From: a virus
Reading direction: 5' to 3' (one strand)
Length of the DNA stretch: 36,915 bases
Virus record (IMG/VR): IMGVR_UViG_3300034101_001829
Location: 1-36,915 of that record
Numbering within the stretch: position 1 is the first letter of the stretch; each line of letters starts with the position of its first letter. The position numbers and the translations under genes were made by a program. Shown piece by piece: positions 14,434 through 31,852 of the stretch. The notes under the pieces are model-generated. The model was not told where the DNA came from, made no database searches, and saw nothing but the letters and a program-made list of their open reading frames with translations.

Positions 14434-14775
14434 CTGCTACACTCAACACGCCACGTCGAGAGACGCGCACAACACCCAAAGAATACGGACCCTAAACGAT
14501 TACATTCCTCCTCACCACAACTATCGGTGAGGGCAGCATGGTTAGATCGCACGGGATGAGTGGCCTGAAAAGGGGACCGATGGTGGTCGCCTTCTTTCGG
14601 TATCAAGACAGACGGGTTCAGGCGTAAAACAGAACTTGGGGGGGCTAAAGAAATGCCTGACGCCTCGCATACGCTCGTTGTCCTAGCGCCCTCACATACG
14701 TTCGGTTGCTACCACCGGTGCTTACACAACTTCGAGAACAGGCGCGACCAGGCGCAGCACAAAAGATAACATTCA

Positions 14776-14801: not shown

Positions 14802-14869
14802 GAGCAAAAACGGCGCGCCACAAACACCCGCAGCCTCACGCCCCGCGTGACCCAACCACAAAAATGACC

Positions 14870-14884
14870 ACACACAACAACCCT
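14870..14884. repeat. 15-bp direct repeat, copy 2
   Basis: Identical to 14419-14433. It is followed at once by TATACAT, a good -10-like sequence reading rightward, with ATGACC fifteen bases before it as a poor -35. Both copies of the 15-mer thus lie just upstream of -10-like sequences, which suggests an activator site or promoter element. Confidence 0.5.
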
Positions 14885-14945
14885 TATACATACCCATACG
14901 CGGGGGTGCCTCGGCAGATGCCCCGTGTTGCGAACGTGTGTTTGG

Positions 14946-15080
14946 GCGAACGTCCGTTCGCGGATCGCTACGCTTCGTGGTTGCGACCACGGAGAGTGAC
15001 CGGCTGCGGAGAGTGGTCGCGTCACCACTAGTACTAAAGTACTGCTAACTATTGCTAGCACTTTGGGTTCGGTAGTTAGC
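14946..15080. repeat. Cluster of palindromes upstream of the plus-strand cassette
   Basis: Successive perfect or near-perfect inverted repeats: GCGAACG/CGTTCGC (14946-14961, 2-base loop), CGTGGT/ACCACG (14976-14991, 4-base loop), AGTGGT/ACCACT (15012-15029, 6-base loop), a doubled AGTACT separated by AA (15029-15042), AAAGTACT paired with AGCACTTT (7/8) and GCTAACTA/TAGTTAGC (15044-15080, 21-base loop). The last two interleave. Such density is far above background and suits a replication origin, a recombination site or a multi-operator region. Confidence 0.6.
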
Positions 15081-15099
15081 GGTTGCCTCCGCCTATGTG

Positions 15100-15129
15100 A
15101 CTTGCGGGTAGGTTACTTGTGGGTAGGTT
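15100..15129 (+). repeat. Tandem 15-bp repeat before the early promoter
   Basis: ACTTGCGGGTAGGTT is followed directly by ACTTGTGGGTAGGTT, one base different. Further G/T-rich sequence (GGTGGGTTGGGTTTG) continues to 15144. The repeat ends about 45 bases upstream of the -35 of the promoter candidate, where an activator or an iteron-binding protein could act. Confidence 0.6.
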
Positions 15130-15174
15130 GGTGGGTTGGGTTTGTTGCGATCGTGTTACTTTTTGTTTCTGTCC

Positions 15175-15203
15175 TTGCATCCGATAACGGTATGGCGTAT
15201 CTT
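15175..15203 (+). promoter_or_regulatory. Candidate promoter of the plus-strand cassette
   Basis: TTGCAT (15175-15180) and TATCTT (15198-15203) are separated by exactly 17 bases. The expected start of transcription, about 15210, coincides with the first base of the leader hairpin at 15211. The hexamers match the housekeeping consensus at 3 and 4 of 6 positions, so the call rests partly on position. Confidence 0.5.
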
Positions 15204-15210
15204 TGAGGAT

Positions 15211-15237
15211 GTCGGCAAGGGGCCGACAGAAAGAGAG
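15211..15237 (+). promoter_or_regulatory. Leader A: 5' hairpin plus AGAAAGAGAG ribosome-binding region
   Basis: GTCGGC and GCCGAC form a perfect 6-bp stem with loop AAGGG, followed by ACAGAAAGAGAG (15226-15237) and the ATG at 15244. The purine-rich core recurs before the genes at 16528 and 17997. It replaces the GGAG-type site used elsewhere in this genome. Confidence 0.55.
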
Positions 15238-15243
15238 CGAGAT

Positions 15244-15588
15244 ATGTCCAGATTGTTCGGAGTTACTTTCAGGGTGAGGGAGGGCGATATGCCCTCGCTC
15301 ATCACTAGCGATAGTTCTGACCCGTTGGATTGGGATAATCGCGTCGCGGAGTTTGGCGACGTGTTTGAGGCGCGAGAGTTTGCGGAGGAGTGCTATGACA
15401 CTCTTACGGAGATGAGCGCCTATAAGGGCGATTGGCAGAGTCTCATGGTAGATGTCGTGGAGTTTGAGGGGTGTCAGGAGTGTGGCGCGTACGTGTTCCG
15501 TTTGCCTGAGCCTGATTCCGATTACTTTCACGTCGGCGCGAACTGTGCGCACGGTCAGAACCTCGCGCACGTTGAGGTTGCGGTATGA
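15244..15588 (+). CDS. First gene of the plus-strand cassette, possible zinc-binding protein (114 aa)
   Basis: Not recognised. It is an acidic protein with CQECG (Cys77, Cys80) and, twenty residues later, CAH (Cys101, His103), a spacing that could bind one zinc ion. The rest (RVAEFGDVFEAREFAEECYD) is helical. An in-frame upstream ATG at 15136 would precede the predicted transcription start, so the ATG at 15244 behind the AGAAAGAGAG leader is preferred. It overlaps the next gene by four bases (ATGA). As the promoter-proximal gene of an early-type cassette it may act on host functions, but nothing in the sequence says which. Confidence 0.7.
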   Translation: MSRLFGVTFRVREGDMPSLITSDSSDPLDWDNRVAEFGDVFEAREFAEECYDTLTEMSAYKGDWQSLMVDVVEFEGCQECGAYVFRLPEPDSDYFHVGANCAHGQNLAHVEVAV

Positions 15589-15863
15589 GCGATACAAAAC
15601 CGGTTTTAGCGTCGTTCGTGGTTGGTGATTGGTTCATCACTTTGACGCGAGATGACGGTAGAGAACCCGACGGCGTGCGGTTGGTTGCTACGTCTGGCGG
15701 TGTTCGGCGCTCCGAATGGTTGCCTAGTTACTCCGTGGCGTTAGCGAGAGCAGCTTGCTTTGTTCGGATTGTGGAGTCAAACGAAACGCAAGGTTTTACA
15801 CGGGCCGCTAGGGGTTTTGAGCGCCAGGTAGAACGATTCTTCGGTGAGGCGGTGACGGCATGA
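15585..15863 (+). CDS. Small cassette protein (92 aa)
   Basis: Unrecognised soluble protein. The N-terminal half is beta-prone (LASFVVGDWFITLTRDDG) and the C-terminal half helical and basic (TRAARGFERQVERFF). It has a single cysteine and no membrane segment. It overlaps its neighbours by four bases on each side (ATGA), which shows it is translated as part of the run. Function unknown. Confidence 0.65.
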   Translation: MSDTKPVLASFVVGDWFITLTRDDGREPDGVRLVATSGGVRRSEWLPSYSVALARAACFVRIVESNETQGFTRAARGFERQVERFFGEAVTA

Positions 15864-16108
15864 GGCTCACTATCGACGGGCAACTATTCGCTACGGCGTT
15901 ATCGGTTCCCCTCCACATCAACGGCTACGCCCAACCGGTTTTTTCTGCCGAAGAGCGCGCACGGATTTTGGCGGAGTGTGTTCGGTTGGGTTGGGATGCC
16001 CCAAACGATGACTACGACGGAATCCCCTCCCACCTGGCGGGGTGGGAGGAGCTGCCTGATGGTACTTGGACGGTTCAGGGTTGGGTATGGGAGGAGGTGC
16101 AAGGATGA
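15860..16108 (+). CDS. Small cassette protein with helix then Trp-rich end (82 aa)
   Basis: Unrecognised. It opens with a beta-like LTIDGQLFATALSVPLHING, then a helix (SAEERARILAECVRLGWD) and an unusual Trp-rich C-terminus containing five Trp in the last 38 residues (GWEELPDGTWTVQGWVW). The Trp-rich end suggests a small protein-interaction domain. Coupled by ATGA at both ends. Function unknown. Confidence 0.65.
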   Translation: MRLTIDGQLFATALSVPLHINGYAQPVFSAEERARILAECVRLGWDAPNDDYDGIPSHLAGWEELPDGTWTVQGWVWEEVQG

Positions 16109-16317
16109 ACTACGAACTATCTGTAACGTTTCGTACCTCTCGCCCCTTGACCGACGGCGAGGTAACGGATCTTCTGAACCGCATCGGGTTGGAGATTAGC
16201 GAACCGTCATCGACCGACGACGACGGTATGCCCACAGAGGCCGAATGGAGTGGACGCAATGCGCGTATGCTCCTCATCGACGATGCCGGCACGGAGGCGG
16301 GATCGTGGAGATGGTGA
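16105..16317 (+). CDS. Small acidic cassette protein (70 aa)
   Basis: Unrecognised. The start ATG at 16105 overlaps the previous stop and has GGAGGAGG about ten bases upstream, one of the strongest ribosome-binding sites of the cassette. The protein is acidic (EPSSTDDDGMPTEAEW), with a beta-prone start (YELSVTFRTSRPLTD) and a helix (EVTDLLNRIGLEI) between. Small acidic phage proteins are often DNA mimics or inhibitors, but no specific similarity supports that here. Confidence 0.65.
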   Translation: MNYELSVTFRTSRPLTDGEVTDLLNRIGLEISEPSSTDDDGMPTEAEWSGRNARMLLIDDAGTEAGSWRW

Positions 16318-16472
16318 CCCTCGCGGTTCGTTTCCTGGTGACCGTCGGCGCCGTTGCCATGGTGATGCTATGGGCGCTCTATGTTCTATGGGATGCTCAG
16401 GGCCGACGCCAAACATTCGGCAGCCAGATCGGTTCGGCGGTTCGTTGGATGCTCAACATCCCCCGCCGATAG
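16311..16472 (+). CDS. Small single-span membrane protein (53 aa)
   Basis: Residues 2-24 (TLAVRFLVTVGAVAMVMLWA and following) form one strong transmembrane helix. A basic tail follows (DAQGRRQTFGSQIGSAVRW and RR at the end), so the C-terminus is probably cytoplasmic. The ATG at 16311 overlaps the previous gene by seven bases. The tail coding region also contains the promoter candidate for the next gene. Small membrane proteins of early cassettes may affect superinfection or the host envelope; here this is only a possibility. Confidence 0.6.
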   Translation: MVTLAVRFLVTVGAVAMVMLWALYVLWDAQGRRQTFGSQIGSAVRWMLNIPRR

Positions 16473-16481
16473 TGTTATCAT
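16453..16481 (+). promoter_or_regulatory. Candidate internal promoter of the plus-strand cassette
   Basis: TCAACA (16453-16458, 4 of 6), a 17-base spacer, an extended TG (16473-16474) and TATCAT (16476-16481, 5 of 6). The predicted start near 16488 falls at the beginning of the hairpin at 16487, the same arrangement as for the first cassette promoter. Confidence 0.55.
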
Positions 16482-16486
16482 CAATA

Positions 16487-16525
16487 TGGGGGCAACCCCA
16501 CCAACCCAAAGAAAGAGAGAAAAAG
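16487..16525 (+). promoter_or_regulatory. Leader B: GNRA-capped hairpin plus AGAAAGAGAG ribosome-binding region
   Basis: TGGGG and CCCCA form a 5-bp stem closed by the stable tetraloop GCAA (16487-16500). Then comes AACCCAAAGAAAGAGAG followed by AAAAAG (16503-16525), three bases before the ATG at 16528. Sixteen bases of the core (AGAAAGAGAGAAAAAG) are shared exactly with leader C. Confidence 0.55.
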
Positions 16526-16527
16526 AA

Positions 16528-17091
16528 ATGAAAATAAAAGAAATAGCCGACGCGGCTCTACGCCTGGCGGCCATGGAAGAAGAAATGCAGACACTCCGCG
16601 AAACGGTCAAGGCCGACACGCCAACCCTCGACGCGCTGTGCCTCGCCGTAAATAGTTGGGGCGAATTGCGAAAGCGTGACGCCCTCACCGTTGAGGCAAC
16701 CGGCGCCGAATGGCAACGAACCTTGCACAGCTCAGGCGCTTACCTCGATGCCGTTGCATATGTCATCGTAAAGCGTGACGGCAGCCAACAGCGAGGGCAG
16801 CTCAATATCCGAACGATTGCTACGCACGAATCAGGAACCGTATCCGCATCGGGATGGGACACGCACGACGGGAGACACGTCATGTTCTCCGCGTACGTTT
16901 GCCACGTCGAAATACCCGACGCGGCACGGAAGATCATCAACCAAAAACTATCTGAAACATGGAGCCAGGTCGCTCCGTGCGTGCCGACGCTATGGAATGA
17001 GGCTATGACCTATAAGGCCGCCCGTAGTGTTCAGGAAAAACACTATGACGCCGTAGAAAACATTTCGCGTCTCATCGTGGCGGTGAAATGA
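16528..17091 (+). CDS. Largest cassette protein, unknown (187 aa)
   Basis: The first 40 residues (EIADAALRLAAMEEEMQTLR) form a likely coiled coil. The middle is mixed (LDAVAYVIVKRDGSQQRGQL, HVMFSAYVCHVEIPDAARK), and the C-terminal part is helical. A longer in-frame ATG at 16381 is unlikely because it would precede the promoter and leader; 16528 follows the purine leader directly. The coding start is A-rich (AAAATAAAAG), which keeps the initiation region unstructured. A coiled-coil oligomer is likely; function unknown. It overlaps the next gene by four bases. Confidence 0.7.
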   Translation: MKIKEIADAALRLAAMEEEMQTLRETVKADTPTLDALCLAVNSWGELRKRDALTVEATGAEWQRTLHSSGAYLDAVAYVIVKRDGSQQRGQLNIRTIATHESGTVSASGWDTHDGRHVMFSAYVCHVEIPDAARKIINQKLSETWSQVAPCVPTLWNEAMTYKAARSVQEKHYDAVENISRLIVAVK

Positions 17092-17336
17092 TGTCTACGC
17101 TCAATGTTTGCGTCGATTGCGCAATGCGAGGGGCGAACGGGTACGAACCCGACGCCGTGGACTACTCCAACGGTCACCCGCAACGATATGAGGCTGCCCT
17201 AGTAGCCAATGATGGAGCCGAACCATATCCAACCGGCGAAACGGAACCCCACTTTTCGTGGACGGCGTGCCACTATTGCGGAGACATCAACGGCGGAGAT
17301 CGAATCGAATCCCAACTAGTAGGAGGTAGAAAGTGA
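17088..17336 (+). CDS. Putative zinc-finger protein (82 aa)
   Basis: Two CxxC pairs, Cys8/Cys11 (CVDCA) and Cys61/Cys64 (CHYCGD), frame a region with conserved-looking Gly and aromatic residues and end in GDINGGDR. This plan, an N-terminal CxxC, then HFSWxxCxxCGxxxGGDR, is familiar from unnamed small phage proteins of actinobacterial viruses. One structural zinc is likely. The start may be ATG 17088 (overlapping the previous stop) or the adjacent ATG 17091. Function unknown; nucleic-acid or protein binding possible. Confidence 0.65.
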   Translation: MMSTLNVCVDCAMRGANGYEPDAVDYSNGHPQRYEAALVANDGAEPYPTGETEPHFSWTACHYCGDINGGDRIESQLVGGRK

Positions 17337-17677
17337 TTAGCGTAGAAACACTGTTCCCAAGTGGGGACCTTGAGCTGTCGGCCTTAGTGGGTGACGGGCG
17401 GGCGCCTGGCGCTTACTACGAACGGCAACGATATTCGGGTTACGGCGAAACAGAGGCGCTCCGTCTCTTTGTGACCTATCTCTATGCGCACGGGAAACGC
17501 ATCGACGACGGCGACCTAGTGTTTGAGGCTCCTTGCCGGTCATGTCGCTCCGTATGTCTTACGGACGAATGGACGGCAGGCGGCCCCTACTTTGGGAGCG
17601 GTTGCGAATGTGGCGGTGACGTCGATACGGATGCTTGGCAGCTTTCGGACGAACCTCATCCGTCAGTGTGGGGGTGA
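17333..17677 (+). CDS. Cys-rich cassette protein (114 aa)
   Basis: It begins with GTG at 17333, eight bases after AGGAGG, and overlaps the previous stop (GTGA), so this start is well supported. Five cysteines lie in the C-terminal half: CRSCRSVC (68, 71, 75) and CEC (91, 93), a zinc-ribbon-like set. The N-terminal half is helical (GETEALRLFVTYLYAHG) and may be a small folded domain. Unrecognised. Together with the preceding gene it makes a pair of Cys-rich proteins. Confidence 0.65.
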   Translation: MISVETLFPSGDLELSALVGDGRAPGAYYERQRYSGYGETEALRLFVTYLYAHGKRIDDGDLVFEAPCRSCRSVCLTDEWTAGGPYFGSGCECGGDVDTDAWQLSDEPHPSVWG

Positions 17678-17678
17678 C

Positions 17679-17975
17679 ATGACCCGCCGAAATGGGGGGT
17701 ACCTAGATGGGGGGCGGGGTACGGTTCGCGCCTCCTGGCGCCTCCTGACGCGTGTTTTAGATGAGGTTCGGCACGGTTTCACCGTTTCGAGGGTAATCGT
17801 GCCGACGTTCGGCACGACACTGTTTATCGTCCTACCGGTCACCGCTACCACGCGATCACTGACCGCAACACTGACCGCAATGGCAGCCGTCTACCCGTTC
17901 TGCCATCTCTATTTTCGATACCGTGCCCGCCACGATATCGGCAGCAATGTCGGCCACCATTTCGGTGACCGCTAA
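17679..17975 (+). CDS. Small two-span membrane protein (98 aa)
   Basis: The N-terminal 35 residues are basic (MTRRNGGYLDGGRGTVR). Two hydrophobic stretches follow, about residues 41-57 (VIVPTFGTTLFIVLPVT) and 62-80 (LTATLTAMAAVYPFCHLYF), and then a basic cytoplasmic tail (RYRARHD). It begins one base after the previous stop with only a weak ribosome-binding site (GGGGGTGAC). The basic ends suggest an N-in, C-in hairpin topology. Function unknown. Confidence 0.55.
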   Translation: MTRRNGGYLDGGRGTVRASWRLLTRVLDEVRHGFTVSRVIVPTFGTTLFIVLPVTATTRSLTATLTAMAAVYPFCHLYFRYRARHDIGSNVGHHFGDR

Positions 17976-17996
17976 CCCAACAGAAAGAGAGAAAAA
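17951..17996 (+). promoter_or_regulatory. Leader C: hairpin plus AGAAAGAGAG ribosome-binding region
   Basis: CGGCCACC and GGTGACCG (17951-17958, 17964-17971) pair with one mismatch. AACCCAACAGAAAGAGAG and AAAAA follow and lead into the GTG start at 17997. The core is shared with leader B over 16 bases, counting the G of GTG. Part of the hairpin lies in the end of the membrane-protein gene. No convincing promoter is seen here. Confidence 0.5.
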
Positions 17997-18323
17997 GTGA
18001 ACACAGAAGATATTCATGCACTTGCCCGCCGACATGGTACGGAGGCCGCGCATCACTTTTGGCAGCTTGACCCTGCCGAATATGACATGGCAACCGAATG
18101 GGTACGCAATGCCGACGCCGGCACCATGCAGGAGTATGACATACCAGGAGCTTTCGATGAGATGCCATGCGATCTCAACACGGACGGATGGGATTGGGAT
18201 GATATTGCGACATACGGCGCCATTTGGGAGGCCGCATACCTCAATGCAACCACAGAACTATGTCGGCAAGTAATCTCCGCCGATGACATGGCAGCCGCCA
18301 ATGAGGTTCGACATGAACGGTAG
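17997..18323 (+). CDS. Acidic helical cassette protein (108 aa)
   Basis: GTG start directly behind leader C. The protein is acidic and helical with many Asp, Glu, Ala and Trp residues (WQLDPAEYDMATEWVRNAD, DGWDWDDIATYGAIWEAAY). No cysteine pair, membrane span or enzyme motif. The density of acidic and aromatic residues would suit a DNA-mimic or an inhibitor that binds a host protein, but this is a guess from composition. It overlaps the next gene by eleven bases. Confidence 0.65.
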   Translation: MNTEDIHALARRHGTEAAHHFWQLDPAEYDMATEWVRNADAGTMQEYDIPGAFDEMPCDLNTDGWDWDDIATYGAIWEAAYLNATTELCRQVISADDMAAANEVRHER

Positions 18324-28036: not shown

Positions 28037-28196
28037 CTTTCCCCCCTGTGAAGGTCAGGACTGAGTGTAGCACCAGTGCTACGCCTGTGATCCAGAGAGC
28101 TTGACGCAATGTTGGACCCGAGAGGGTAATAAGTACTAGCCCTGTGCCGGCGAGGGTCCACGAGTTTTCGGTGATGTAGTCCAGTATGCGTTTCAT
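28029..28196 (-). CDS. Small membrane protein upstream of the holin (55 aa)
   Basis: ATG at 28196 shares bases with the stop of the PA14-like gene (TAATG). Two hydrophobic stretches (WTLAGTGLVLITLSG and LWITGVALVLHSVLTF) with short turns give a hairpin membrane protein. It could be an antiholin, a second holin component or a regulator of the timing of lysis. It overlaps the holin start by eight bases. Confidence 0.6.
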   Translation of the reverse strand: MKRILDYITENSWTLAGTGLVLITLSGPTLRQALWITGVALVLHSVLTFTGGKDD

Positions 28197-29482
28197 TATC
28201 GGCGTATCCTAGTCGCTCCTGCGGCGGTGATGGCTGCGCCGATGGCGATGAGGGCGCGACGTTCCCCGACGGGGATGTTGGAGCCTGTCGGAATATAGTC
28301 ATCCAGTCCTTCTTTGAAGATGTCTACCTTTTCTTCGAACGCTTCTCTGACTTCGGTGGGGGCGTCTTGGACCGCGGCTACCAGTTCAGCCACCTGTGCC
28401 TCGTCCAACGTGCCGAGGTCAAGGGCTTCGAAGATTGCTTCGGCTTCTTCGCTGCTGATCGTGGCAAGCACCTCTGGGTTGCTGGCTAGGGTTGCTGCCT
28501 GCTCCGATGTCGGCTCCTCGGGTATGGTTGATTGTGATGGTTCTTCTTCTGTTTCCGGTTCTGGGAATGTTTCTTCTGGTGTCGTTTCTGTTTCTAGCGT
28601 TGTTTCGGGTTGAGGCATTTCAGGCTCGGTTGTCGGAGGAGTCTGAGGGGTTGGGTCCTGTGGCTCGTCGTCTTCTGGCTGAGGAGGCGTGCTGTCAGGG
28701 GGAGGCGCTTCCTCCTCGACAGGTTCCGTAGTCGTTGTAGTCGTCTCGGGTTCTGGTTCGGGTTCTGTGGTGGTGGTTGCTGGCGGCACATAAACAGTCG
28801 TCGTCGTAGTGGTGGTGGTTTGTTCAGTAGTTGTCGTAACCAACTCTGTGGTCGTGGTGACAGGCTCAGTCGTAGTTGTCTCAGGCAGTGTCGTCTCAGG
28901 AACGGTCGTCTCAGGAACGGTTGTCTCAGGCACCGTCGTCGTGGTGGTCGGTGGGGTGGAGGTTTGAGTGAACGCCTCATCAGGGACGATGGCCCAGCCT
29001 TCGTTGTCAATGTTCCAGGCAAGCATGTAGCAGGTTCCGCCACCCCATTCGAAGAACCAGCCGTCTAACGGATACGTGCCAGCCCCAACATCAAGGCTGA
29101 CTTGCTCACTCCATTGGCAACTTTTGACGTCCCATGTGCCGAACTCGGTGTCTGCGATTTGGATGGTGCCGCCGTCGTCGGCTGCGACCATGAACTGAAT
29201 CGTCTCATGTTCGGGGAGGGTGATGAATCCCGTGTAGTGAACCATGAAGAAGTCGTATCCGCAGTTTTGGAATGGTTCGCCGTTGAAGTTGCGGTTGATG
29301 TTGTTTTCTGTCTCTGACCCGCAGGTTGGGTAGAGGTCGTCTACGCGGAGGGGGATGCCTGTCGGCTCATAGGTGTAGCCAACGGCGTTGAGTCCAGGTT
29401 CAACGTCGGCTTTCGCTGGGGCAGCGAGCGCGAGGATTGCTGCTGGAAGAAATATCAGCCAGCGGAGTCGACGGCTACCCAC
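28196..29482 (-). CDS. Secreted PA14-like, Thr/Pro/Glu-rich protein (428 aa)
   Basis: The N-terminus (RRLRWLIFLPAAILALAAPA, then KADVEP) is a classical signal peptide. Residues 30-170 resemble a PA14/GLEYA domain, a beta-sandwich that binds carbohydrates: DFFMVHYTGFITLPEHETIQ, FMVAADDGGTIQIAD, with several cysteines. Residues 175-330 are a low-complexity Thr/Pro/Glu stalk with repeats of PETTV. Residues 335-400 are helical and acidic (SEEAEAIFEALDLGTLDEAQ). The end has IPTGS, a hydrophobic helix (ALIAIGAAITAAGAT) and RIRR, as in wall-anchored proteins, but without a full LPxTG. Probably displayed on the infected cell or virion; function unknown. GTG start, GAGG upstream. Confidence 0.75.
   Translation of the reverse strand: MGSRRLRWLIFLPAAILALAAPAKADVEPGLNAVGYTYEPTGIPLRVDDLYPTCGSETENNINRNFNGEPFQNCGYDFFMVHYTGFITLPEHETIQFMVAADDGGTIQIADTEFGTWDVKSCQWSEQVSLDVGAGTYPLDGWFFEWGGGTCYMLAWNIDNEGWAIVPDEAFTQTSTPPTTTTTVPETTVPETTVPETTLPETTTTEPVTTTTELVTTTTEQTTTTTTTTVYVPPATTTTEPEPEPETTTTTTEPVEEEAPPPDSTPPQPEDDEPQDPTPQTPPTTEPEMPQPETTLETETTPEETFPEPETEEEPSQSTIPEEPTSEQAATLASNPEVLATISSEEAEAIFEALDLGTLDEAQVAELVAAVQDAPTEVREAFEEKVDIFKEGLDDYIPTGSNIPVGERRALIAIGAAITAAGATRIRR
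28875..28934 (-). repeat. Tandem 15-bp repeats encoding PETTV units
   Basis: Four consecutive 15-bp units; the two central ones are identical (28890-28904 and 28905-28919) and the outer two differ at a few bases. They encode ETTVP-type repeats in the stalk of the PA14-like protein. Unit number is likely to vary between relatives by slippage. Confidence 0.75.
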
Positions 29483-29829: not shown

Positions 29830-30762
29830 TTACGCCGCAACCACTAGAGAGCCAGTGTCGTTGAATGTATGAATCGTGTATGAACCGCTTGTCGTTTTTG
29901 TTCCACCAGTGATAGTAAAAGATGTTTCAGAGGATGTAAGGTAACGAACAATCACCACACCCTTACCGCCAGCACCGCCAGTGTAGGTAAAGGAAGCGAA
30001 AGGGTCGGGGCCTGCGCCACCACCACCACCGCCCGTGTTTATGGTACCAGCAGAACCATCTTGTTCTTCGCCCCCCCCACGACCTCCGCCACCAGCGCCA
30101 CCGTTACTTGTGGTGCTATTTCCACCGCCACCACCACCAGCACGAGTTACGGAAGTTCCTGTTATTGAAGATGCGACACCATCACCACCTTCTCTGGTCC
30201 CATCTGTGTTTCCTGCTTCACCAGCACCGCCACCGCCACCACCATTTGACGAACTGAAAGCACCACCAGCAAAACCTTGATTAGCGGTTCCCGTACCAGC
30301 GGGGCTTGCACCATTCGCAGCACCACCGCCAGAACCACCATTTATGATGGCAGGGAAGACGCCGCCCGCTGATTGTCCACCACCACCACCACCAGTTGAA
30401 GTAATAGAACTAAAAACGCTATTGCTTCCCTTGCTGTCAGCCGCACCGCCACCACCAACGGTGACTGTGTATGTTCCTGCAATCAATGAAAGTGATGATT
30501 CTGCGGATGCTCCACCACCAGAACTCTCACCCGCAACAGAAGAACGGTAACCGCCAGCACCGCCACCGCCAGAACCATCATAAGTAAAGGTGTTTGAACC
30601 TCCGCCACCGCCGCCAGCGATGACTACATACTCGACGCTCAATGTAGGTGCCTGGTATGTTACGCCTTTTGCCTGTGCGGAAACGTAACCTAGATAGGAG
30701 CGGTTTATTGTTTCGCCAGGGTTAGGTGTCGCAGAAACGTAACCGTAATACGAACGGCTCAT
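29830..30762 (-). CDS. Glycine-rich tail adhesin 2 (310 aa)
   Basis: About 40% glycine. The N-terminus has the repeat RSYYGYVSA and RSYLGYVSA, then a beta segment (VTYQAPTLSVEYVVIAGGGG) and many Gly-rich motifs (GGGGGG, GGSGGG) with short variable loops between them. It ends with a small beta domain (TKTTSGSYTIHTFNDTGSLV). The pattern resembles the polyglycine-sandwich adhesins of T-even-like phages, in which loops between packed polyglycine helices bind the receptor. Likely receptor-binding tip protein. Followed by a small partner gene. The coding strand is correspondingly rich in GGT repeats. Confidence 0.8.
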   Translation of the reverse strand: MSRSYYGYVSATPNPGETINRSYLGYVSAQAKGVTYQAPTLSVEYVVIAGGGGGGSNTFTYDGSGGGGAGGYRSSVAGESSGGGASAESSLSLIAGTYTVTVGGGGAADSKGSNSVFSSITSTGGGGGGQSAGGVFPAIINGGSGGGAANGASPAGTGTANQGFAGGAFSSSNGGGGGGAGEAGNTDGTREGGDGVASSITGTSVTRAGGGGGGNSTTSNGGAGGGGRGGGEEQDGSAGTINTGGGGGGAGPDPFASFTYTGGAGGKGVVIVRYLTSSETSFTITGGTKTTSGSYTIHTFNDTGSLVVAA

Positions 30763-30764
30763 CG

Positions 30765-31004
30765 TTACTCCTCGCTTATCGGAGCAACAAACTTAGACCC
30801 ATCCCACACATCACCAATACCAGCAAACTTCCCACGATCCGCACCCTCAACCGGATTACCGTTGTACGACGTTTGCACCCATTCGCCAGCAAGACCGATG
30901 CTTGCGATGAACGCTTTGCCTGCGGCCTCTGTTGGGGCGTCACCGTTGCCGACGACGATAACTTCTCGAACGATACCGTTTTCAATCTTTGCGAAGTGTG
31001 CCAT
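30765..31004 (-). CDS. Adhesin partner protein 1 (79 aa)
   Basis: The sequence MAHFAKIENGIVREVIVVGN, then WVQTSYNGNPVEGADRGKFA and GIGDVWDGSKFVAPISEE is a shorter paralogue of the 121-residue protein at 29455-29820, lacking its C-terminal third. It is flush between the two glycine-rich genes with two-base gaps. The pairing of one such protein with each adhesin gene suggests a structural or assembly link. Confidence 0.75.
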   Translation of the reverse strand: MAHFAKIENGIVREVIVVGNGDAPTEAAGKAFIASIGLAGEWVQTSYNGNPVEGADRGKFAGIGDVWDGSKFVAPISEE

Positions 31005-31006
31005 AG

Positions 31007-31852
31007 TTACGCCCTGAACCTTACAAGAACAATTCCTGAGCCACCTGCTGCACCAGCGCCAGTTGTTGCAGTGCTTCCACCGCCACCACCGCCAGTATTT
31101 GCTGTGCCAGCATTGCCGCGAGTACCGCCGCCACCAGAACCACCCGTGCCACCCGAAGCACCACCACCACCACCACCACCTGCGTAGAAAGTTGTAGATG
31201 ATGCTTCTCCACGGAAACTGGAAGCGTCATATCCAGCACCACCGTTACCGCCAGCGGTCCCAGAAGCGTTAGCGCCAACAGCACCACCGCCACCACCGCC
31301 ACCAGAACCGTCGTTGTCATTGCCGCCACCAGAACCACCATCAAAACCTTGATAGCCGATTCCTGCTGCTGTGAACTGAGCATTACCAGAACCAAAACCG
31401 CCGCCACCGCAACCACCTGCGCCTGCTCGGAATCTGTCACCACCAGATGAGCCAGTGCCACCGCCAGTACCGCTCAGCGAATTGCGTGAAGTGTCAATTC
31501 TGGAAGCATTAGACCCCATTGCACCAACAGAGCCACCAGCACCAATCACTACGCTGGTATTTGCGCTGAGATAAATGGTTTCCGTGATTACGCCGCCACC
31601 GCCGCCAGCACCCGCATAGCCAGTTGCGGAACGACCTCCACCGCCACCGCCACCAATTACAAGCACATCAAATAATCCCGCAGTGGTAACCGTCAAGGTG
31701 CCCGAAGAAGTAAAAGTCAGCAGCGTGTAGTTCACACCACCAATCGTGATACTGCTACTAGTTCCACCTGTCGCCGAGCCATAGGTCATAACAGGCGTGT
31801 TCTGCTGCGTCAGCGACGACACATACCCAAGTTGACGGCGAGCAGTAGCCAT
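31007..31852 (-). CDS. Glycine-rich tail adhesin 1 (281 aa)
   Basis: The N-terminus (RRQLGYVSSLTQQNTPVMTY) shares the GYVS motif with adhesin 2. It is followed by a small beta domain (SSSITIGGVNYTLLTFTSSG), then a long polyglycine part (GGGGGGGRSATGYAGAGGGG, GGSGGGND), ending GIVLVRFRA, the same end as adhesin 2's glycine core (VVIVRYL). The polyglycine core should carry variable receptor-binding loops (DTSRNSLSG, YDASSFRGEASSTTFYAG). The two adhesins differ in loop sequences, which may widen the host range. Confidence 0.8.
   Translation of the reverse strand: MATARRQLGYVSSLTQQNTPVMTYGSATGGTSSSITIGGVNYTLLTFTSSGTLTVTTAGLFDVLVIGGGGGGGRSATGYAGAGGGGGVITETIYLSANTSVVIGAGGSVGAMGSNASRIDTSRNSLSGTGGGTGSSGGDRFRAGAGGCGGGGFGSGNAQFTAAGIGYQGFDGGSGGGNDNDGSGGGGGGGAVGANASGTAGGNGGAGYDASSFRGEASSTTFYAGGGGGGGASGGTGGSGGGGTRGNAGTANTGGGGGGSTATTGAGAAGGSGIVLVRFRA

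Follow-up and report, generated by a model that had tools for sequence, protein, structure and literature searches.

The 36.9-kb virus record IMGVR_UViG_3300034101_001829 (36,915 nt), analysed here over its full length and referred to as the window, carries a densely palindromic control region between two gene blocks. A terminase operon encoding the terminase, the portal, and the major head protein runs leftward from 14282, and small early genes of unassigned function run rightward from 15244. Further along, a DNA methyltransferase, a single-strand annealing protein, a RecE-like exonuclease, and other genes are read leftward from 20524. The arrangement around the palindromes is divergent, with the candidate early promoter downstream of them, just as the first-pass annotation had described it. 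Positions 29830-31852 encode two proteins rich in glycine, with long runs of it; they are probably tail or fibre proteins and the likely cause of a GC-skew reversal near 30 kb.

A DNA similarity search of 50,697 phage records returned zero matches to the record, and no closely related isolate was found, the best terminase (TerL) protein match among phage records having 27% identity. In viral contigs, 163 stretches code for a relative of this terminase, of which the 80 loci with 72-100% identity were used; relatives are cited below by locus number. Control regions were compared in a set of 60 non-redundant regions anchored on block B, a conserved element between the terminase gene and the palindromes (Table 1). 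From the metagenome contig numbers, we take these phages to come from lakes. A host search of genome-collection contigs with the pattern of the neighbouring RNA element and a TerL profile gave no match. Our guess, based on the LexA-type boxes described below and on threonine-rich linkers of a putative surface protein (28196-29482), is that the host is Gram-positive.

Table 1. Elements of the control region, in window coordinates, with their state of conservation
Element	Position	Strand	Remark
Block B, leftward (late) promoter-like element	14857-14926	-	conserved in 69 sequences
Block B, -10-like TATAAG	14888-14883	-	
Block B, TGCC box	14916-14913, inside GGGGCATCTGCC (14924-14913)	-	near-invariant
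Block B, downstream part TGTGTGG..TTTTGTG			conserved
LexA/SOS-type box 1, CGAACGTGTGTTTG	14931-14944	+	exact match to CGAACRNRYGTTYG
LexA/SOS-type box 2, CGAACGTCCGTTCG	14947-14960	+	13/14 to strict consensus
Degenerate inverted copy of 17-bp site, CAACCACGAAGCGTAGC	14967-14983	-	better preserved in L001
17-bp operator-like site, copy 1, GACCACGGAGAGTGACC	14985-15001	+	for enrichment of the 17-mer, see text
17-bp operator-like site, copy 2, GGCTGCGGAGAGTGGTC	15002-15018	+	abuts copy 1 directly
Dyad AGTACT-AA-AGTACT	15030-15043	.	kept in L001, L002, L006; not in L008
6-N4-6 dyad GCTAAC-TATT-GCTAGC	15044-15059	.	
Second, degenerate dyad GGGTTC-GGTA-GTTAGC	15065-15080	.	
Two tandem degenerate copies of GTTACC-N4-GGTAAC dyad, GTGACTTGCGGGTAGG, GTTACTTGTGGGTAGG	15097-15127	+	15 bp apart
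Candidate early promoter TTGCAT-17-TATCTT	15175-15203	+	placed by position against relatives' TTGACA-17-TAnnnT
Leader hairpin TGTCGGC-AAGGG-GCCGACA before first early gene	15210-15228	+	kept in L001, L007

Density and composition of the palindromes

At least five inverted repeats, two of them interleaved, had been reported in the 135 bases from 14946 to 15080. Counting perfect arms of at least 6 bases and loops of at most 22, we find six, against a mean of 0.75 in dinucleotide shuffles, and this number was reached by 0 of 1000 shuffles and by none of 818 sampled genome windows. With loops of at most 10, four are found (shuffle mean 0.39, p = 0.001), a count seen in 1 of the 818, namely the one that overlaps this stretch. 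The stretch ranks first for inverted repeats among the 818 (p ~0.001 against dinucleotide shuffles), and its folding with DNA parameters is lower than that of shuffles (z = -2.7). The interleaving was also recovered, since the palindrome at 14983-15020 overlaps both 15012-15029 and 14996-15025. The cluster itself therefore stands, but its boundary shifts slightly: the unit extends from 14931 to about 15127, a second LexA-type box lying to the left of the start given before.

Comparison of relatives, proposed earlier as a check, resolves the palindromes into distinct putative operators that follow one another in a set order. Box 2 is the core of the first palindrome (14946-14961). The palindrome at 14976-14991 consists of one 17-mer and its inverted copy, and the interleaved 8-bp palindrome at 14983-15020 arises where two 17-mers abut, its arms being their outer half-sites. 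The right half of the dyad at 15065-15080 pairs with 15044-15051 to give an 8-bp palindrome, and the arms of the resulting larger dyad (37 bp, 15044-15080) are kept in L001, L002, L006, and L008, with the intervening sequence altered in L008.

LexA-type boxes

Box 1 is the only exact match to the strict consensus in the whole window. In the first 130 nt to the right of block B, summed over the 60 regions (7.8 kb), there are 28 LexA-type boxes, whereas shuffles of the same 7.8 kb gave a mean of 0.05 and a maximum of 2; that 1% of the 709 kb of relatives' loci holds over half of all LexA-type sites. They are carried by 18 of the 60 regions, the other 42, close relatives among them, having none. 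In all 28 sites position 6 is a purine (R) and position 9 a pyrimidine (Y), as in the published Gram-positive LexA consensus, printed as CGAACRNRYGTTYC (PMC2248561). The Bacillus box is given as CGAAC-N4-GTTCG (PMC4551915) and the Streptomyces venezuelae motif as tCGAAC-N4-GNNCGa; 13 contiguous bases of box 1 are shared with the S. venezuelae lexA-2 box TCGAACGTGTGTTT and 11 of box 2 with its dnaE2-2 box TCGAACGTCCGTAC (PMC9380542). Given that the 14-bp Gram-positive dyad, CGAACRNRYGTTYG or CGAAC-N4-GTTCG, is present, that it lies in a regulatory position, and that it is conserved in relatives, we infer that the pair at 14931-14960 would be bound by LexA of the host.

The 17-bp sites and further dyads

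The tandem 17-bp sites at 14985-15018 read GACCACGGAGAGTGrYC and are the only matches to the 17-mer within 3 mismatches in the window. Across the 60 regions, 15 sites occur in 12 (shuffle mean 0.1). L011, L062, and L013 carry near-perfect to perfect versions of the GTTACC-N4-GGTAAC dyad in their control regions. It gives 24 sites, spread over 14 of the 60 regions (shuffles average 1.1), the degenerate window copies falling beyond the 2-mismatch cut-off used for it. These two families and GTTAGG-N4-CCTAAC all occur far more often than in shuffles; in early genes they are nearly absent, the densities of the 17-mer, GTTACC, and GTTAGG motifs there being 0, 0.03, and 0.02 per kb. The enrichment of GCTAAC-N4-GTTAGC is inflated, some of its matches being LexA-type boxes, and is not independent evidence. 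Apart from the 17-mer, all dyad families here have a half-site-N4-half-site geometry.

Sequences to the right of block B are mostly unalignable across relatives, but short motifs are shared among them and keep a common order. Their median distances from block B are 22 nt for the LexA-type box, 50 for the 17-mer GACCACGGAGAGTGGTC, 107 for GTTACC-N4-GGTAAC, and 157 for GTTAGG-N4-CCTAAC. Each phage holds a subset of the families; that of the window comprises the LexA-type boxes, the 17-mer, the GCTAAC-type dyad, and the degenerate GTTACC-type repeats. About 160-190 nt to the right of block B, L011 has TGTGGATAR words, roughly where the window has TTGYGGGTAGG repeats.

Flanking candidate promoters

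Block B lies upstream of TerL in nearly all relatives with 72-100% TerL identity. On its leftward strand TATWAK is preceded by an invariant TGCC box (TGCC in 68 of 68; TAT(A/T) near-invariant), and a -35 hexamer is absent at the usual distance. We infer from this pattern that block B is the late promoter; TGCC and TATWAK without a -35 hexamer suggest a so far unrecognised phage activator or sigma factor.

On the early side, relatives have promoters of the form TTGACA-17-TAnnnT about 190-290 nt from block B. No promoter in this region of the window passes a sigma-70 consensus scan, and the candidate was placed by its position. Its spacer contains an imperfect dyad (15183-15201), and the equivalent in L007 is TTGCAA-17-TATCTT with the dyad AAGGGTATCCCTT. 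The leader hairpin that follows is slightly changed in L002 and L006.

Exchange of the control region with the early genes

In L004, L005, and L023, TerL is near-identical to that of the window (~99.7-100%) and the neighbouring RNA element is common to all three. However, homology to L004 and L005 stops at 14893, within block B, and to L023 at 14791. It resumes in L005 and L023 after ~18.3 kb, in scattered pieces only; the L004 locus ends before that point. Relative to window positions 14893-18300, the control region and the early genes have been replaced as one block in these three phages. Among 49 early proteins of relatives there are matches to ArdA, other antirestriction, and RusA-like families, which fits a role in host takeover rather than in the start of replication. 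In one relative there is also a match to a family of DNA polymerase processivity factors, and the early genes thus do not lack replication-related members altogether.

In lambda-type immunity regions, too, operators move with the early genes beside them between phages that are otherwise near-identical. The present case differs in that no repressor gene was found and that three unrelated operator types stand in tandem. The sites themselves, their enrichment, order, and conservation, and the exchange of the module were all observed directly.

A structured RNA beside the terminase gene

A 176-nt element (14474-14649, plus strand) has the terminase gene on one side and the control region on the other; it is represented by 38 distinct sequences and found upstream of the terminase gene wherever a locus includes that gene. 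For seven proposed helices, 99.2% of cells are paired and 117 are changed on both sides, against a mean of 33 in shuffles (0 of 500 as high) and at most 17 in slid controls, and an exhaustive scan of column pairs puts the helix pairs on top. The 3' side of helix 119-122/153-156 falls within the loop of 147-151/164-168, which would make the two a probable pseudoknot; the latter helix is invariant, so covariation lends it no support. The plus-strand reading is favoured by a GAAA tetraloop. A 265-kb search brought up diverged members in six more loci, from more distant relatives (L069, L053, L057, L049, L035, and L034; E ~0.0003-0.03); all share the strand of the element and lie upstream of the terminase gene. 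The element had no match in Rfam 15 even at E up to 1, and none was found in phage records; it is apparently a structured, strongly covarying RNA undescribed so far.

Just upstream, at 14435-14443, is a plus-strand extended -10, TGCTACACT, to which some relatives add TTGCAA 17-18 nt away. The spacing between the TerL start (14282) and the RNA element (14474) varies from ~50 to 1900 nt in relatives, which indicates that inserts are frequent there. Phage phi29 has a packaging RNA, and the position beside the terminase gene recalls it, although this is only a thought. The element is a concrete new object absent from Rfam 15, and it probably deserves more attention than the palindromes.

Discussion

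We consider it likely that the palindromes form a LexA-linked multi-operator control region flanked by a late promoter reading leftward and an early one reading rightward. Its first two dyads would be Gram-positive-type LexA (SOS) boxes next to the conserved late-promoter box. Host LexA bound there would hold back transcription, most likely leftward, and its cleavage after DNA damage or during infection would release it. The tandem 17-bp sites and the 6-N4-6 dyads may serve as operators for two additional dimeric regulators, encoded by phage or host, that set early transcription, and the operators would evolve with the genes they serve, region and early gene block being exchanged as one module. 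In this model, which proteins bind, that they repress, and which promoter each site controls are all deduced from sequence. Among the functions offered before, replication origin, resolution site, or multi-site operator, it is the operator that recurrent, ordered motif families in dozens of relatives uphold; the origin finds no support.

Which promoter answers to LexA is the weakest step of the model. In phages that have the boxes, these often lie 4-31 nt from block B and generally at least 150 nt from the early promoter, and leftward control is therefore favoured. However, the window boxes lie ~55-85 bp upstream of the putative late start and >200 bp from the early promoter, and with these distances simple steric repression is not obvious. 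In L020, an additional LexA-type box close to where the first early gene begins suggests that early control may be exerted as well. No phage regulator for the sites other than the LexA type was found among the window proteins searched or the sampled early genes.

The boxes could instead be bound by a phage repressor or activator with LexA-like specificity. Bacillus thuringiensis phage GIL01 offers a precedent in gp6, a truncated LexA homologue that activates the late promoter (PMC6182141), and the half-site-N4-half-site geometry common to all dyad families except the 17-mer would suit such a regulator. Against this, the window proteins searched and the sampled early genes include no LexA-like or repressor-like protein, and the boxes fit the cellular consensus down to its R and Y positions; we think this explanation unlikely.

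A replication origin, in which the tandem 17-bp repeats would serve as iterons, bound by a host protein or by an unrecognised initiator of the phage, while the palindromes would aid unwinding, seems to us somewhat more doubtful still. Tandem direct repeats and dyads are indeed present, there is a modest AT maximum (62% in the best 50 bp, 15029-15078), L011 has two tandem TGTGGATAR words, one of them a perfect DnaA box, at a roughly equivalent place, and a control and early block that moves as a unit would also suit an exchangeable replication module. However, given that 14850-15300 contains zero DnaA boxes within 1 mismatch, that the AT content of the stretch is average (44% against 45% for the genome), that neither GC skew nor third-position skew shows a switch at 15 kb, and that no initiator, helicase loader, primase, or polymerase was recognised among the window proteins searched and the 49 early proteins of relatives, several hallmarks of an iteron origin are missing. 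Where such an origin would have several tandem repeats of 17-22 bp, the repeats number only 2-3 in the window (two in tandem and one inverted) and 0-3 in relatives, most of which have none recognisable. Moreover, near-identical phages swap this sequence wholesale, and an essential, unique origin is not expected in a block so exchanged. A single primase-family match proved to be the DNA methyltransferase. The first-pass annotation had noted that no initiator or polymerase gene is seen, but its deduction that host proteins must recognise the origin does not follow; nonetheless, for two of the sites the best candidate binder is indeed a protein of the host, LexA.

Far less probable is a site for site-specific recombination, resolution, or packaging (a terminal site): dense inverted repeats, the 37-bp dyad, and the adjoining terminase gene would suit one, but the window proteins searched gave no integrase or resolvase family match and the dyads are not universal by TerL, in contrast to the late block and, within a subset, to the RNA element. 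Least credible of all are RNA-level hairpins (terminators or an attenuator) or coding sequence, for although an open frame of ~50 codons passes through from an ATG at 14864, the key dyads at 14946-14961 and 15030-15043 have 2-nt loops and would make poor RNA hairpins, and a terminator scan finds none here. The small plus-strand peptide starting at 14864 was rejected, only its first few codons being alike in the alignment of relatives.

To return to the LexA-linked control region, its closest parallel is GIL01, in which host LexA acts with the phage proteins gp7 and gp6 at promoters P1 and P3, the LexA boxes being dinBox1/1b and dinBox2/3 (PMC4551915; PMC6182141). Both phages have pairs of Gram-positive-type LexA boxes beside known or putative promoters, neither shows a classic CI-type repressor gene, and the GIL01 late promoter also carries an activator site, as the putative one here may. 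In contrast, the GIL01 boxes lie at or just beside promoter elements, whereas those of the window lie upstream of the box of the putative late promoter. Two further operator families occupy the region here, the phage lineage is unrelated, and matches to the gp7 and gp6 families are absent among the early proteins, although proteins so small are easily missed. The control logic would be similar to that of GIL01 and its parts different, and we do not claim membership. The S. venezuelae LexA regulon, with its near-identical boxes at lexA-2 and dnaE2-2, includes prophage-cluster genes (PMC9380542). There the boxes are chromosomal, whereas here they belong to an uncultured phage.

More tentatively, it is possible that a lineage of freshwater phages without a recognised integrase ties its late genes directly to the SOS repressor of the host, by means of LexA boxes placed against a conserved late promoter specific to these phages, and that it swaps this whole three-tier module together with antirestriction-type early genes between genomes that are otherwise near-identical, the adjacent RNA being part of the switch. 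The dense palindromes of a phage control region can be resolved into separate operator families by comparison alone. If the proposal is true, it would provide a testable decision circuit for an uncultured phage group without an isolate. Induction of the host SOS response should then alter the expression of phage genes. Phages that have the boxes and phages that lack them, which combine the same late genes with a different module, would serve as natural controls.
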